Assembly (NCBI GenBank): GCA_030603215.1
Contig: JAUVYF010000004.1
Location: 1 to 42,801 of the forward strand
DNA length: 42,801 nucleotides
Source: Candidatus Bipolaricaulota bacterium
GTDB lineage: Bacteria > Bipolaricaulota > Bipolaricaulia > UBA7950 > UBA9294
Direction: 5' to 3'
The notes under the pieces were generated by a model. The model saw only the letters and a program-made list of their open reading frames with translations. It did no database searches and was not told the origin of the DNA. Positions 30,925-40,333 of this stretch are shown here, piece after piece; position 1 is the stretch's first letter; every line of letters begins with the position of its first letter. Both the position numbers and the translations under genes were made by a program.

Positions 30925-32349
30925 TCACTTCCTTGTTGTTAGTTTTCTTTGAGCAAGTAGCTGTTTGGCTTTCTCAATCTGAGCACGGACCACTAACGGA
31001 GCGGTACCCCCCTGTGTATCCCTCGCTTCTACCGACCGCTGGAAATCGAGGGCCTCATACAGGTCTTCGCTAAAGGCCGAATGGATGGCCTGGTAATCGA
31101 CTAGAGGTAAGTCTTTCAGTGATACCGCCAACCTCTCGGATCGCCTCACGGCCAGACCTATCAAGTGATGACTCTGGCGGAATGGTAGGCCTTTACGCAC
31201 CAAGTAATCTGCAAGGTCTGTTGCGAGAAGGCTATCGTCCCACGCGGCGGCCATGTGTGCCGCATTCACCTGCATAGTGTGAATCACCCCAGCTGCGATA
31301 GGAAGCTCCTTTTTGAGCGTATCGATCACGTCGAAAACCGCCTCTTTGTCTTCCTGTAGGTCTTTGTTGTAGGTTGATGGGAGCCCCTTAAGCGTCGTCA
31401 GTAGCCCCACTAAGTGGCCCACTATTCGTCCGCTCTTACCTCGTATCAACTCCAGCGAGTCGGGATTCTTCTTTTGGGGCATGATACTGGAGCCAGTGCT
31501 GTAAGCATCAGCTATTTCCACGAAGCCAAACTCGCGTGTGGACCATATAATGAGAGTCTCCGCCAGGCAGCTGAGGTGCACCTGCACCAAGGCAGCCCAA
31601 GTCAAGAATTCGACAACGTAGTCTCGGTCGCTCACTGCATCCATACTGTTCTCGCTTACGCTAGCGAAGCCCAATTCGGCGGCCAGTGTCCTGCGGTCTA
31701 TGTTGAATGGATTCCCGGCCAGCGCCCCCGACCCCAGTGGACAGACTCGCAAGCGCCCTGTTAAATTGGTTAGTCGCTCGTGATCACGTTGAAACTTCCA
31801 AAAGAACGACATCAGCCAGTGGCTGAAAAGCACTGGTTGTGCTGGTTGTAGATGTGTGTAACCTGGCATGACAATGTCCGGGTGACTCTCAGCCTTCTCG
31901 ACAACGACCACCTGTAATTCGATCAAAGCCTGTCTCAAGACCGCTATTGTGTCCAACAAGTAGAGGCGGAGATCGGTAGTCACCTGATCGTTACGAGAAC
32001 GACCGGTATGCAGCTTGCCTGCTATCGGGCCCATCAGCTCCTCAAGTCGCCGCTCGACGGCAGTGTGAATATCCTCATCGCCCGGCTTGGTCTGAAAGGC
32101 GCCGGTGTCGAATTCGGTACGAACCTGCTCCAGGCCAGCGATAATTTGGTTACGTTCTTCTTTGGTAATGATGCCCGCGAGTGCCAAGGCACTGGCATAG
32201 GCGATACTCCCTCGAATATCGGCAGCGTACATGCGCCGATCGAATCCGATGGAGTCGCCAAAGTGTCTCATCAACTCATCGGTTGCTGATGTAAAACGCC
32301 CTCCCCAAAGTGTCACGTTTTCTCCTCCTTGCGGGCTGTAACCCAGCAT
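30925..32349 (-). CDS. argH: Argininosuccinate lyase
   Basis: LWGGRFTSATDELMRHFGDSIGFDRRMYAADI; GSSIMPQKKNPDSLELIRGKSGR. Confidence 0.98.
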   Translation of the reverse strand: MLGYSPQGGENVTLWGGRFTSATDELMRHFGDSIGFDRRMYAADIRGSIAYASALALAGIITKEERNQIIAGLEQVRTEFDTGAFQTKPGDEDIHTAVERRLEELMGPIAGKLHTGRSRNDQVTTDLRLYLLDTIAVLRQALIELQVVVVEKAESHPDIVMPGYTHLQPAQPVLFSHWLMSFFWKFQRDHERLTNLTGRLRVCPLGSGALAGNPFNIDRRTLAAELGFASVSENSMDAVSDRDYVVEFLTWAALVQVHLSCLAETLIIWSTREFGFVEIADAYSTGSSIMPQKKNPDSLELIRGKSGRIVGHLVGLLTTLKGLPSTYNKDLQEDKEAVFDVIDTLKKELPIAAGVIHTMQVNAAHMAAAWDDSLLATDLADYLVRKGLPFRQSHHLIGLAVRRSERLAVSLKDLPLVDYQAIHSAFSEDLYEALDFQRSVEARDTQGGTAPLVVRAQIEKAKQLLAQRKLTTRK

Positions 32350-33608
32350 TAGTCTCGTTTGAAGTGGCTGTAGTCGGGTGACTCTAGTTCTGACATTCCT
32401 CCGTTTTCCATGTCGATCAGCGCTCTAACCTTGAGAGGTAAACCAAACAGATTGATGAAGCCTTCTGCGTCACTCTGGTCATAGACGTCGTCCTGGCCAA
32501 AGGTGGCAAAATCCTCGCGGTAGAGACTAAAGGGTGATTTGCGGCCCACTACGGTGCAACTGCCCTTGTATAGCTTGACACGCACGGTCCCAGTCACCCG
32601 TTCCTGAGTCGTAGCGACGAAGGCATCTATGGCCTCACGCAGTGGCGTAAACCACTGACCGTTGTACACCAATTCAGCGTAGCGATGGCCGACTAGTTCC
32701 TTGTAATGTAGGGTTTCCCGATCCAGACAAATGCTCTCCAGCCCTTGGTGCGCGGTATAGAGGATGGTTCCTCCAGGGGTCTCGTACACGCCCCGCGATT
32801 TCATGCCCACCAGGCGGTTCTCCACCATGTCAGCAAGACCGACCCCATGGGCACCACCCAGTTCGTTGAGGTGGGTGAGGAGTTCCACTGGTCCCTGCGG
32901 ATCGCCATCAACAGCGATTGGCACACCCTTGTTAAAACCAATGGTCAAGTAATGGGGGTCATCAGGCGCACCCTCTGGCGGCGTGGTGAGGCAGTACATC
33001 TCTTTCTCTGCCTCGTTCCAAGGATCTTCCAAGATGCCGCCTTCATGACTCAGGTGCCAGATGTTGCGATCACGACTGTAGATGGATTTTTCTGTTGTTG
33101 CCACTGGAATGCTATGAGCACGGGCATAGGCTAGTGCATCCTCACGAGAGCGGATCTTCCACTCGCGCCACGGAGCGATCACCTGCAGTGTAGGGTTAAG
33201 GGCTTTAAAGGTGAGCTCGAAGCGTACCTGATCATTACCCTTGCCCGTGCAACCGTGTGCTACAGCGTCGGCCCCTTCCTCTTTGGCGGTCTTCACCATG
33301 TACTTAGCAATGAGGGGACGAGCAGTAGCTGTACCCAAAAGGTAAAGTCTTTCATAGATGGCACCCGCCTGCAGTGTGGGGAACGCGTATTCGGTGAGAA
33401 ACTCTTCACGCAAATCGGCAATGTAAACCTTGCTTGCGCCACTAGCAATGGCCTTTTCCTCCAACCCTACTAGTTCATCGCTCCCCTGTCCTACATCGGC
33501 AGTAAAGGCAATTACTTCACAGTCATAGTTTTCCTTTAACCATGGAACAATAACCGAGGTATCCAACCCTCCGGAGTAAGCTAACACCACTTTGTCGATT
33601 TTCTTCAT
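32349..33608 (-). CDS. argG: Argininosuccinate synthase
   Basis: [53 protein letters not shown] aaaggag upstream of the ATG. Confidence 0.98.
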
Positions 33609-33783
33609 TTCTTAGGCTCCTTTAAAGTGCTTCTATATGGTCTATGAGACTTCATCTTTATTTAAGGAAAGAGCCACTTGGTCGGACAAGATAACCTGAT
33701 GGCTGTGAAAAGAATCGGCGGGCCGGGCAACAACCTCAACCGTATACGTAAGAGTAAACCTAGAAAAAAAGGGGAAAAAGAAG

Positions 33784-33813
33784 CATACGGCTCGGGTGCT
33801 ACCCGACCGTACG
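33784..33813 (-). terminator. Putative attenuator/terminator hairpin in the argGH leader
   Basis: Minus strand CGTACGGTCGGGT-AGC-ACCCGAGCCGTATG (about 13 bp, one bulged G and one G-U pair) followed by CTTCTTTTTCCCCTTTTTTT down to ~33764; ~175 nt upstream of the argG start. Confidence 0.8.
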
Positions 33814-33855
33814 TCTACGCAAACAAGAGAAACATCTACGCTTATACCACTTCAT
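33799..33855 (-). CDS. Putative arginine-rich leader peptide MKWYKRRCFSCLRRRTVG
   Basis: 18-codon ORF ending TAG; 5 of 18 codons are Arg (CGT AGA ... CGT AGA CGT); overlaps the 5' arm of the hairpin; starts within a few nt of the predicted transcription start. Confidence 0.6.
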   Translation of the reverse strand: MKWYKRRCFSCLRRRTVG

Positions 33856-33864
33856 GACTGTTGT

Positions 33865-33893
33865 ACTATACACTTCCTCCCTAATTATGTCAA
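33865..33893 (-). promoter_or_regulatory. Strong sigma70-like promoter for the argGH leader
   Basis: Minus strand TTGACA-17 nt-TATAGT. Confidence 0.75.
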
Positions 33894-33919
33894 GGGACCG
33901 CATACATGGTTCGCTAGCA

Positions 33920-34076
33920 AGAGTTCATAGAGTTTGTCGGGTTCGTGGAGTTTGTAGAGTGAGTAGGAACCGCGAAGTGAGACCTGAAAACTGATAACTG
34001 CCTTTATTCCTGGCAACTGCCTTTCTTCCCGAAAGATTCCTTTCCTTTGCTGATTACTGAATACTGAAAGCCTTGA
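33920..34076. repeat. Composite short-unit repeat island
   Basis: GAGTTCATAGAGTTTGTCGGGTTCGTGGAGTTTGTAGAG and CCTGAAAACTGATAACTGCCTTTATTCC modules. Confidence 0.65.
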
Positions 34077-34091
34077 ATTGCATGGTACTTA

Positions 34092-34832
34092 TCAAAAGAG
34101 TACTCGGCAACTGATGCCACATTTCTCTAAGCCAGAGCAGAGCTCCTGGCTTTTCAAGAATAGGGACGGTCTCTCTAATTGGTATTCCCGATAAACCCAG
34201 TCGGCATGGTGATAATTCATTTTGTCAATCAAAGCGTAATCCACTTTCCCATCAAGAATATCAACCAATTCCTCCGCCTTGGGAAGCATTGGTGCAATCA
34301 TTGCGAAAGCCCTAATCCCAGCCGAATGTAGCTCTCCAAGCGCGCTTATTCTTTCCTTAATTGGGGGAGCGTATGGTTCAAACAGACGTCTTATCTTTTC
34401 ATCCCCTGTAGTCACGGTCATGCCAACCTCAACCGTGGAGGACCCTTTCAGTAATTCCAGATCCCGCAATACTAGTGCGGACCTTGTTTGGATTGTGATT
34501 GGCCAATCATGTTGAATCAATATCTCAACGCACATCTTGGTTAGCTCGTACTTTCTCTCTATTGGTTGATATGGGTCACATACTCCGCTTATCCAAACCC
34601 TGCCAGCCGGCTTTCTTTTTACTTCCTCCTGTAATAAGTCTGGAGCATTAATCTTCACATCAACGAACTGACCCCAGGGTTCCTTATGCCCACTGAACCT
34701 CTTCATAAAGCGAGCATAGCAATAAGTACAGGCATGCTGGCAACCTACATAGGGATTGATGGTGTACTCATATACCTTAGATCGGGATAAGATACTTCTG
34801 GCCCTTGTCTCTCGAATAATCATCGCTATCAT
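34092..34832 (-). CDS. SPL-family (spore photoproduct lyase-like) radical SAM protein
   Basis: INPYVGCQHACTYCYARFMKRFSGH (CxxxCxxC), ISGVCDPYQPIERKYELT; internal Met (MIIRET, 34823) may be the real start. Confidence 0.9.
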   Translation of the reverse strand: MIAMIIRETRARSILSRSKVYEYTINPYVGCQHACTYCYARFMKRFSGHKEPWGQFVDVKINAPDLLQEEVKRKPAGRVWISGVCDPYQPIERKYELTKMCVEILIQHDWPITIQTRSALVLRDLELLKGSSTVEVGMTVTTGDEKIRRLFEPYAPPIKERISALGELHSAGIRAFAMIAPMLPKAEELVDILDGKVDYALIDKMNYHHADWVYREYQLERPSLFLKSQELCSGLEKCGISCRVLF

Positions 34833-36364: not shown

Positions 36365-37216
36365 TTAGGATGCCCCAACCTCCGCTCGCTCCAGGAGCGC
36401 GAGTGTGGTCTTCCACGCATCGAGGAAAGAGACTTCCTGGCCATGGGGAAGCAGGTAGAGCAGATTCCGCTTCCAATCTCGTTCAAACTCGGCACGTCGG
36501 GCACAAATTGCTGTTAAACTCAGCTGCCCTACATCAAGCCCTTTTGCAGCAAACTTCTCTTTGAGGAGGGGAAGAATAGCTGTGATGTTAACCCCTTTTT
36601 TCATGAGAATATGAATGTCGTAGATATCGCGCGAGATGGCGAATCGGCGTTGTCCACCAACAGCACGGATCTTTTCGGCAAGCATTTCAGCGAGTGAGTA
36701 ACATGGCAGAATGGCTTGACCTAGGGCGTGGGCGTCGGAATAAGGGTGAATCAACGAGCGCTTTTCAACAGGGAGGATGAGGCTTTCCTTTCCCGTGATA
36801 TCCAACCGAATCGCCTGGGGTGAACCGGCAAAGCGCAGTGGACCTCTGAAGTAGATCCTTGCCTGCAACGTCTCTACACCATACTCATCGGAGATTTCCT
36901 CGAAACGAGGTGTTCTAACAGAAAAATCAGGCCCTCCTCTTTCCTCACACCACTGTGCTGCTTGTTCTACCCGCGGCTTCAAGCTCTTTGTGTTCATGGT
37001 TGTGGTAGCGGTGAAGTCCAGATCCTCAGAGAAGCGGTGCTGGGAGAAATACGCCTTGCGCAGACACGTGCCACCCTTGAAACGAAGACGATCTTTCAGA
37101 TGATTAGCAGCATATAGAGCGGCTAAGAACCATCCTAAGGCATAATCCAGGTTCAAGATCATTGGATCAATCTCCTGGTTCGCAGCGCGTCGCCGGAGCT
37201 CCGCTTCACGAATCAT
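36365..37216 (-). CDS. abiEii: Nucleotidyltransferase AbiEii/AbiGii-type toxin
   Basis: LRFKGGTCLRKAYFSQHRFSEDLDFT (AbiEii NTase), SLAEMLAEKIRAVGGQRRFAISRDIYDI. Confidence 0.93.
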   Translation of the reverse strand: MIREAELRRRAANQEIDPMILNLDYALGWFLAALYAANHLKDRLRFKGGTCLRKAYFSQHRFSEDLDFTATTTMNTKSLKPRVEQAAQWCEERGGPDFSVRTPRFEEISDEYGVETLQARIYFRGPLRFAGSPQAIRLDITGKESLILPVEKRSLIHPYSDAHALGQAILPCYSLAEMLAEKIRAVGGQRRFAISRDIYDIHILMKKGVNITAILPLLKEKFAAKGLDVGQLSLTAICARRAEFERDWKRNLLYLLPHGQEVSFLDAWKTTLALLERAEVGAS

Positions 37217-38034
37217 TGGTTATCCCTAATGCCAGGGATATAGGAGTTTATTCGCAGCCGCCATTTGGAAACGATCTTTCCCTCTTTCCCGGATCCCGGC
37301 TCGAGCAGCGAGACGCCAGCAGAGAGATGGGATTGCCAGAGATCAAGGCGTTCCTTCAATTTGGGAATAGGAAGGTTCATTGTCTCCACTAGATAGCCCA
37401 AACGCTTAACAACCGCTCCCACGCGAAACTGCTCTAAGTAGGCATCAATCTGCTTCCAATCGATCTCGTTCCAGGATCCGCGCAGCGCCTCAGCAAGCTG
37501 TGCAATTCCACCGCTAAGGTCCAGACGATCCGCCGCGTCTATCAGGGTCTTTTCTCGGTTTGTGACTAGGACGCTTCGACCATCAACGCTACTAGTGGCA
37601 ATGCCGAAGAACTTGCGTTCTCTCACGGTCACAAAGCGGAAGGAGATCCCCAAACTCTTTCTCACGCGTTGGGAGGTACGTTCAGGTGTCTGTAAGAATA
37701 TCACCCGCGGCATCTGCTCAGTCATGTGCCAGTAATGAAGGGCAGACCAATATGCCACAGCAACACGTTTGGCAAGGTACGGTGCGATGACCAGCCCTTC
37801 CTCGGACCATTCCCGCCGTAAACCGGCCTCCAAGGGAATGACCATATATGTTCCACGTGTCAAGCGCTCAAGCCATCCCTTGTTTAGAAGACGGTGCAGC
37901 ACCTTGGTCGTGTAGGCACGGTTTTGCCAAAACGCGTGCGCTTCCTTGAACGTGAAGATCCCGCTCTTCTCAGCCGCCATACGAACGAGAAACTCCGCCT
38001 CTTTGGGTCCCAACTCAGCTATATTCCGTGCCAT
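37213..38034 (-). CDS. abiEi: AbiEi-type antitoxin / transcriptional regulator
   Basis: N-terminal winged HTH (FTFKEAHAFWQNRAYTTKVLHRLLNKGWLERLTRGTYMVIPLEAG), KTLIDAADRLDLSGGI; ATGA overlap with the toxin gene; start set to MARNIAEL, the ORF-track start 38250 runs into unrelated sequence. Confidence 0.9.
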   Translation of the reverse strand: MARNIAELGPKEAEFLVRMAAEKSGIFTFKEAHAFWQNRAYTTKVLHRLLNKGWLERLTRGTYMVIPLEAGLRREWSEEGLVIAPYLAKRVAVAYWSALHYWHMTEQMPRVIFLQTPERTSQRVRKSLGISFRFVTVRERKFFGIATSSVDGRSVLVTNREKTLIDAADRLDLSGGIAQLAEALRGSWNEIDWKQIDAYLEQFRVGAVVKRLGYLVETMNLPIPKLKERLDLWQSHLSAGVSLLEPGSGKEGKIVSKWRLRINSYIPGIRDNQ

Positions 38035-38089
38035 AAAAACCACCCCAGACAGGTATGTTTCTGTGCACAATATAACACGACTATTGGGA

Positions 38090-38385
38090 GATATCAATTT
38101 CTGGGTTCCTCGCTGTTTGGAGTGGGTAGTGCTGGGATTCTCATCTCGCTGCATGTGGCCACTGCGCAAGGCGGCTCTCAGGTGCAGATTGCCAGTTTCT
38201 TCATGACCGCGATGATCCTTTCCTTCGTCCTTCTTACGTTCGATGAGCAAGTCCAGCCTGTTCTCGACAGACTGAGTTTCACACAGACAGCGGGGACACG
38301 TCTGGGCATATTTGCTGTTGCAGGTGTCGTTCTGCTGAACGTTGTGATTAAACCCTTCCGTCCTTCAAAACTGATCGTTCGTTGA
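38090..38385 (+). pseudogene. C-terminal remnant of a multi-TM membrane protein
   Basis: FLGSSLFGVGSAGILISLHVATAQGGSQVQIASFFMTAMILSFVLLTFDEQVQPVLDRLSFTQTAGTRLGIFAVAGVVLLNVVIKPFRPSKLIVR is membrane-protein-like but its upstream frame is antisense to abiEi. Confidence 0.45.
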
Positions 38386-39165: not shown

Positions 39166-39330
39166 TGACCATCGGCTCCGATCGCCTTCTGATGGCCTGT
39201 TCGACGTTCACCCGCTCGTACAGACGACTGACATGGGAATTCCGGGTCCTTGCTCTTGGATTGACAGCCGCTCCATTAGCAGTAGAATGTACTGCGTATG
39301 CAGTGAAAGACACTACAATTGGAGGGGCAG

Positions 39331-39903
39331 ATGCTTGAACAGCTACTAGGATCGAGATTGCGAGCACGGGTAATTGGCTGGCTCTTCACCCATCCGGACG
39401 AGCGCTTCTACATCCGGCAGTTGACAGGGCTACTTCACGAGGATTCAACAAATCTCAGCCGTCAGCTGGCCCAGCTGGAGTCGCTCGGTATTCTCCTCTT
39501 CGAGCGCGATGGGAGGCAAAAGTACTACCGCGCGAATCCCCGTTCGTCAATCTTCGAGGAACTTAAGAGCATAGCCGCCAAGACCACAGGTGCCGTTGAC
39601 GTACTGCAAAAGGCACTCGAAGAGCACCGGGACCACATTCAGGACGCGTTTGTGTTCGGCAGCTTCGCCCGGCAAGAGCAAACAGCGGACAGCGACATCG
39701 ACCTGATGATCATCGGGAGCTTGGACGCAGTTGCCCTCCACGCCTCCATCTCGCGTGCGGAAAGCGAGCTTTGTCGAACTGTCAACTACTCGCTGCTCTC
39801 GCGCGAAGAGTACCAAGATCGGCGAAACAGCAGAAATGGCTTCCTCTCCTCTGTTCTTGAGGGCCCGAAGCTGATGGTGATGGGAGCGGTCGATGAAACT
39901 TGA
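39331..39903 (+). CDS. HTH plus nucleotidyltransferase (MNT) domain protein, antitoxin candidate
   Basis: ArsR-like winged HTH (IRQLTGLLHEDSTNLSRQLAQLESLGILLFERDGRQKYYRAN) fused to GSFARQEQTADSDIDLMIIG. Confidence 0.88.
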   Translation: MLEQLLGSRLRARVIGWLFTHPDERFYIRQLTGLLHEDSTNLSRQLAQLESLGILLFERDGRQKYYRANPRSSIFEELKSIAAKTTGAVDVLQKALEEHRDHIQDAFVFGSFARQEQTADSDIDLMIIGSLDAVALHASISRAESELCRTVNYSLLSREEYQDRRNSRNGFLSSVLEGPKLMVMGAVDET

Positions 39904-40333
39904 CAGACTTCTGCAGGAGCGCAGGATCTATCGCCAGAAGATCGCCTCGGCAGACATCCTGGCGGTGATTGCCCGGGCAGAGAGCGATATCGACTCCGCT
40001 CAGTACATGCTGAAACGTGATCCTGATTGGGCGTTTTCCATTGCCTACAACAGCGTCTTGCAGGCTTCACGTGCGTTGATGTTCTCTCGTGGGTTTCGAC
40101 CGTCAAGCCATGAAGGGCACAAGAACACATTCGCCTTCCTCTGCGCGGTCGCCGAAGAGGATCGAAGAACGCTGGTTGATTTCTTCGATCGGATGCGGGT
40201 GAAACGCCACCAAGCCGTCTACGAGACTGCCGGACTCATCACCAGAATTGAGGCGGAAACACTCATTGAACAGGCCCAAAGCTTTATCACTTGGGTGAAG
40301 GGTGAACTCGACAAGCAGGCTCCCCTTCACTGA
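39893..40333 (+). CDS. HEPN domain protein, toxin candidate
   Basis: ARAESDIDSAQYMLKRDPDWAFSIAYNSVLQASRALMFSRGFRP; RMRVKRHQAVYE (Rx4-6H); 11-nt overlap with the MNT gene. Confidence 0.88.
   Translation: MKLDRLLQERRIYRQKIASADILAVIARAESDIDSAQYMLKRDPDWAFSIAYNSVLQASRALMFSRGFRPSSHEGHKNTFAFLCAVAEEDRRTLVDFFDRMRVKRHQAVYETAGLITRIEAETLIEQAQSFITWVKGELDKQAPLH

Follow-up and report, generated by a model that had tools for sequence, protein, structure and literature searches.

A putative arginine-sensing leader-peptide attenuator upstream of argGH in uncultured Bipolaricaulota

The argGH genes of an uncultured Candidatus Bipolaricaulota bacterium are preceded by a leader that is very probably a classical four-segment, ribosome-mediated transcription attenuator, predicted to control these genes by sensing charged tRNA-Arg through Arg codons in a small open reading frame (ORF). 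The leader lies in a contig stretch of 42,801 nucleotides, here called the window, and the same layout precedes argG in seven leaders of the window's family and in ten from a second family of the class (f4). Control of arginine genes in bacteria is attributed to ArgR or, in Firmicutes, to T-boxes, and the classical attenuators known are those for Trp, His, Thr, Leu, Ile/Val and Phe. An arginine attenuator in lineages that lack ArgR would fill a gap among the latter. It would place the attenuation mechanism outside the phyla where it has been studied, including cases with the start codon at the transcription start, and would be a likely regulator for an entire class of uncultured bacteria, with a cultured Chloroflexota species available as a test case.

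Organisation of the leader

The features of the leader and of the genes behind it are listed in Table 1. The promoter (TTGACA-17-TATAGT, 11 of 12 matches) is the sole promoter-like site within 33000-34600. The leader ORF starts with the ATG at 33855, 9 nt past the -10 box, and stops with the TAG at 33801-33799; five of its 18 codons specify Arg, three of them consecutively. No Shine-Dalgarno sequence was seen before this ORF, and the same is true of most of the 17 leaders, in which ATG (or GTG in f4) follows the -10 box as start codon by about 6-10 nt. Because the start codon is so near the -10 box and a Shine-Dalgarno sequence is missing, the ORF probably occupies the extreme 5' end of the RNA and would be translated in leaderless fashion. 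From this spacing we infer that transcription starts about 7 nt past the -10 box, on the leader ATG or immediately ahead of it.

The end of the ORF runs into a hairpin of 13 bp with one bulged A (1:2; 33813-33801/33797-33784), which has part of the stop codon in its loop, a folding energy of -19.2 kcal/mol (z=-3.8 against shuffles) and CUUCUUUUUCCCCUUUUUUU behind it. A second self-complementary stretch, absent from the initial annotation, spans 33750-33716 and is followed by AUUCUUUU. Its first arm, segment 3, can pair with segment 2 (-19.0 kcal/mol, z=-3.6 against shuffles) or with segment 4, the latter in the window forming a weak, imperfect stem that is no stronger than shuffles (-9.4 kcal/mol, z 0.04). 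The argG gene starts at 33608, 175 nt further on, and its end overlaps argH by one base. The promoter, the 18-codon ORF with five Arg codons, the hairpin at its end, the U-tract and the spacing to argG had all been described in the initial annotation, and each was found in its place.

Table 1. Features of the argGH leader and downstream genes in the window.
Feature	Position	Strand	Basis or remark
-35 box TTGACA	33888..33893	minus	read directly; same spacing conserved in family
-10 box TATAGT	33865..33870	minus	read directly; 17-nt spacer to -35; conserved in family
Leader peptide ORF MKWYKRRCFSCLRRRTVG	33799..33855	minus	18 codons; homologues in the 16 other argG leaders
Regulatory Arg codons CGT AGA CGT	33811..33819	minus	outer pair R-x-R kept in 17/17 leaders
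Segment 1, 5' arm of hairpin 1:2	33801..33813	minus	overlaps ORF end
Segment 2, 3' arm of 1:2 and 5' arm of putative antiterminator 2:3	33784..33797	minus	folding
U/C-rich tract right after 1:2	33764..33783	minus	U-tract here seen in window's genome only
Segment 3, partner of 2 (putative antiterminator) or 4 (putative terminator)	33734..33750	minus	folding and arm swap
Segment 4, 3' arm of terminator-like hairpin 3:4	33716..33728	minus	cleaner stems in relatives
AUUCUUUU tract after 3:4	33708..33715	minus	retained in most of family
argG Shine-Dalgarno AAAGGAG	33617..33623	minus	read directly
argG, argininosuccinate synthase	32349..33608	minus	NF001770, 623.7 bits (cut-off 334); TIGR00032
argH, argininosuccinate lyase	30925..32349	minus	TIGR00838, 611.1 bits (cut-off 279.5)

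Conservation among related argG genes

The family set comprised the window and the genomes G005, G016, G021, G022, G023 and G024, chosen for readable argG starts (72-81% protein identity). Promoter, ORF and hairpins are present in all six further genomes, whose leader peptides are MTSKYIFDSCTRRRTVAG, MISEECILKACMRRRTVAG (or one Met longer), MILGQALHNCFRRRTVAG, MMCCRKPHLYPRKRTVVG, MQFQGTDHKHRARKTVG and MSDVFRVSTLGARAMFRSRTAG; their N-terminal parts are unrelated and their C-terminal ends are conserved. In f4, ten argG genes have the same order of parts, and the peptides end in PRVRTAG or HRYRRKAG directly before the stop codon.

A covariance model (R1) was built from nine f4 leaders alone and used to search 100 genomes of the class. 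It matched the window leader at 33713-33819 (E=4.9e-4, by a rough calibration), along with the leaders of G021 and G024 and eleven f4 leaders; the window, G021 and G024 were not in its training set. Every match was an argG leader, with one leader per genome, and three matches were opposite-strand shadows of the palindromic arms. The 16 carbamoyltransferase genes examined in the class have no such leader upstream. A DNA-level search with the whole leader over 40 relatives returned little beyond the argG start and intergenic matches, because the leader drifts too fast, and homologues emerge only once argG is located. A mobile repeat was considered and rejected, the element being present in one copy per genome and always at argG. 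The leader element is more than a chance arrangement of sequence, for other genera and a second family keep it in the equivalent position ahead of argG.

The initial annotation had proposed comparing related argG leaders for an Arg-rich ORF, and the ORF is kept in all 17, with none found to lack it. Each contains R-x-R near a conserved G-stop end, the final Arg codon preceding the stop by 4-5 codons (12-15 nt), and in each the stop codon lies in or at the 1:2 loop. The early part of the peptide drifts. At R-x-R the codons used include CGT, CGC, CGG and AGG, and from this synonymous exchange it follows that Arg itself is kept. In the window's family the first Arg codon of R-x-R is not part of the paired arm, and the conservation of Arg there cannot be put down to RNA pairing.

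The argG gene itself is patchily distributed: 30 of the 100 class genomes have it, the three other genomes of the window's genus lack it, and carbamoyltransferase-family genes occur in all 100. The window argG resembles Chloroflexota argG (73%) and may have been acquired by transfer.

Alternative pairings

MAFFT alignments of the window's family misplace the arms, and pairing was therefore assessed by exchanging arms between genomes and not by column counts. The arms of 2:3 pair better with their own partners than with swapped ones, at -19.2 versus -15.2 kcal/mol in the window's family (permutation p=0.0024) and -28.4 versus -23.8 kcal/mol in f4 (permutation p=0.0001), p values that are not fully independent since the sequences are related. 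The mean loss on exchange is thus 4-5 kcal/mol, and compensation is seen in GCUGG/CCAGC in G071, G076 and G078 versus GCAGG/CCUGC in G048. Exchange of the 1:2 arms costs less (p=0.003 in the window's family, 0.02 in f4). The 3:4 hairpin can form in all leaders, and its own-arm advantage was not significant in the swap test (p=0.16 and 0.06, respectively). The leaders can therefore adopt the mutually exclusive pairings 1:2, 2:3 and 3:4, of which 1:2 and 2:3 are supported by the arm swaps.

Constrained folding with segment 1 masked yields 2:3 in G000, G024, G021 and the majority of the f4 leaders; masking of segment 2 keeps 3:4 available. In full-length folds of G016, G022 and G005 with segment 1 masked, other long-range pairings beat 2:3; these long-range pairs may not be allowed during co-transcriptional folding.

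The same promoter followed by a hairpin and a U-tract would yield an RNA of about 75-90 nt, as expected if the promoter served a small RNA or a leader terminator that acts constitutively, without response to arginine. We regard such an origin as scarcely probable, as it leaves unexplained the Arg codons with their synonymous exchange, the fixed position of the stop and the covarying 2:3 arms.

Proposed mechanism of control

In the proposed attenuator, plentiful arginine would let the ribosome pass the Arg codons to the TAG, where it would cover segment 1 and most of segment 2; segments 3 and 4 would then pair and transcription would stop before argG. If charged tRNA-Arg is scarce, the ribosome would stall at R13-R15, cover segment 1 and leave segment 2 free to pair with segment 3, and with no terminator formed argGH would be transcribed. 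In the absence of translation 1:2 would form, and the terminator would still be possible. A ribosome with the last Arg codon in its A site covers the RNA to about the stop codon, and one at the stop codon covers most of segment 2. At a distance of 12-15 nt between the last Arg codon and the stop, segment 1 would therefore lie under a stalled ribosome and segment 2 under one that has reached the stop. The initial annotation had cautioned that a ribosome paused at the TAG would mask the same hairpin arm as a stalled one; the four-segment layout removes this difficulty, since a ribosome at the stop would cover segment 2 and permit 3:4, and an Arg-stalled ribosome would cover segment 1 only and permit 2:3.

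An arginine-responsive leader-peptide attenuator of argGH had been the core of the initial annotation, and conservation in 17 of 17 leaders supports it well; the mechanism had to be corrected, and the terminator had probably been misplaced. In that annotation, the stop-codon hairpin 1:2 with its U-tract was the terminator, an Arg-stalled ribosome masked its 5' arm to give readthrough, and 3:4 had no role. In the window 1:2 is indeed the strong hairpin (-19.2 kcal/mol), with CUUCUUUUU behind it, and 3:4 the weak one (-9.4 kcal/mol). Such a version is nevertheless unlikely. A U-tract directly after 1:2 occurs in no other genome examined, all of the leaders retain segments 3 and 4, most of the family also has the AUU-YYUUUU tract, segment 1 would also be covered by a ribosome at the stop, and the 2:3 covariation would not be needed.

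In the relatives the stop-codon hairpin appears as 1:2 of four segments, and 3:4 has clean stems and U-rich tails in G016, G022, G005 and G024, a weak stem in the window and, in f4, mostly no good U-tract behind it. The ancestral terminator is thus likely to be 3:4 and not the hairpin at the stop codon. In the window's own genome, the only one with a U-tract after 1:2, a terminating role for that hairpin is possible, and 1:2, 3:4 or both may terminate. The versions with 1:2 and with 3:4 as terminator predict the same sign of control.

The conserved RxRTxxG at the C-terminus might instead point to nascent-peptide arrest, in which the leader peptide would stall the ribosome on binding of free arginine, as with ornithine and SpeFL, and not for lack of charged tRNA. 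This is very unlikely, as TxxG is dictated by segment 1 at the RNA level and the remaining peptide, unlike arrest peptides, varies freely in sequence and length. Arginine-induced arrest combined with 2:3 would, moreover, turn the genes on when arginine is present.

Comparison with known regulatory systems

ArgR and T-boxes are the customary regulators of arginine genes elsewhere (T-boxes, PMC1262725), and control by an ArgR-type DNA-binding repressor, a riboswitch or a T-box would make the small ORF incidental. Such control is strongly disfavoured here and can hardly be credited. The ArgR family is absent from 100 of 100 class genomes, including the window's own (87% complete), in a search whose control rang in 9 of 14. 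An Rfam cmscan of 33400-34400 at E<=5 gave no T-box or other match except a chance snoRNA, and 20 related loci likewise gave no T-box or other family of note.

The window leader is most like the trp/his-type attenuators of Proteobacteria (Trp, His, Thr, Leu, Phe) in its cognate codons by the stop, its 1:2 hairpin around the stop, its alternative 2:3 and 3:4 pairings and its position before an operon of the cognate amino acid. It differs from them in that it is predicted to sense arginine, is of a type whose start codon follows the -10 box by 6-10 nt with no Shine-Dalgarno sequence, carries a U-tract after 1:2 and matches no Rfam model. A trp/his-type arginine attenuator of bacteria was not found in the open-access literature, to which the search was limited. 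Leader-peptide attenuation outside Proteobacteria is represented by the trp, ilvB and cys leader peptides of Actinobacteria; the same survey found no RNA element ahead of arginine operons, and the RNA control it gives for arginine genes is by T-boxes (PMC1262725). No arginine gene appears in the main text of a survey of attenuators (PMC2965389).

Other leader peptides share single traits with that of the window. Salmonella speF orf34 has two consecutive Arg codons and senses arginine by ribosome pausing, but it controls putrescine synthesis via Rho, RBS masking and RNase G, has the core HIRRT..HIMM, and no intrinsic terminator was found (PMC6386406). By inspection this core is not in MKWYKRRCFSCLRRRTVG, and the genes downstream are argGH, not speF. 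In Staphylococcus aureus rbfL, Arg codons of a leader peptide also sense arginine, but the effect is to block translation initiation of a biofilm regulator and not to attenuate transcription (PMC13009471). A leader peptide also precedes carA, an arginine/pyrimidine synthesis gene of Pseudomonas aeruginosa; attenuation in that case is ascribed to pyrimidines, with arginine acting at the transcriptional level (cited in PMC4997734).

Arginine-rich leaders in other lineages

Other families of the class have a different type of argG (45-50% identity) that also lies behind Arg-rich small ORFs, several of them with a Shine-Dalgarno sequence. Examples are peptides that end before the stop codon in LSFPRRRRS, LPRTRRS, KCVRRRSR or ISAISPLRRGFSSL, and the peptide MAIYKSIKRRAPMFSRRLR. 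In Chloroflexota, an ORF with RR or RxR was found in 13 of 14 argG genes with a strong upstream terminator, examples being MILWPRRCT, MIFQRRRCS, MTVWLRRRLLAG and one containing ARRRPAGSG; the case is suggestive rather than shown because the ORF rule is loose. ArgR is absent from 13 Chloroflexota genomes whose argG leaders tend to bear Arg-rich ORFs. Terminator and Arg ORF co-occur among public argG loci of all phyla (Fisher p=0.012), and by the loose ORF rule an Arg ORF is also present in 20 of 52 such loci without a terminator. A coarse count of upstream ORFs against shuffles gave Arg in 12 of 26 versus 5.9 in the class and 13 of 25 versus 6.6 in Chloroflexota, a measure that is weak by itself because Phe and Ser are also enriched in the class.

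We lean towards the view that arginine leader-peptide attenuation is a widespread, undescribed control of argG in bacteria without ArgR. It would be homologous in the two families described above. Further families of the class and Chloroflexota, Bellilinea caldifistulae among them, would have evolved it independently with different sequences and terminators, and the leader ORFs would often be leaderless. In B. caldifistulae, a cultured species, the argG leader ORF encodes MISISSELRFRRPLTDPFFHGMVGAFGVIQ, and strain GOMI-1 (L038) has a promoter, the Arg-containing small ORF and a strong terminator upstream of argG, an arrangement suited to experiment.

Four Caldilineae loci upstream of argG (L044, L046, L048 and L050) share the leader motif RRxPAGSG, in sequence unrelated to the window leader. 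In a further family (f6; L129, L131 and L133) the leader ORFs end about 210-230 nt upstream of argG and share a long conserved FLISAISPLRRG(F/L/S)(S/T)S, with Arg codons AGG AGA within a hairpin. Because this peptide conservation is so extensive, the f6 leaders might act by nascent-chain arrest instead of codon sensing.

Other features of the window

Immediately upstream of the argGH promoter, at 33975-34065 on the minus strand, are short intergenic repeats of the type TCAGTATTCAGTAATCAGC, and similar wording recurs in translations of further intergenic ORFs in the window. An AbiEii toxin and AbiEi antitoxin pair is located at 36365-38250 on the minus strand. On the plus strand, genes for a nucleotidyltransferase and a HEPN protein at 39319-40333 overlap by 11 bases in a toxin-antitoxin-like arrangement.
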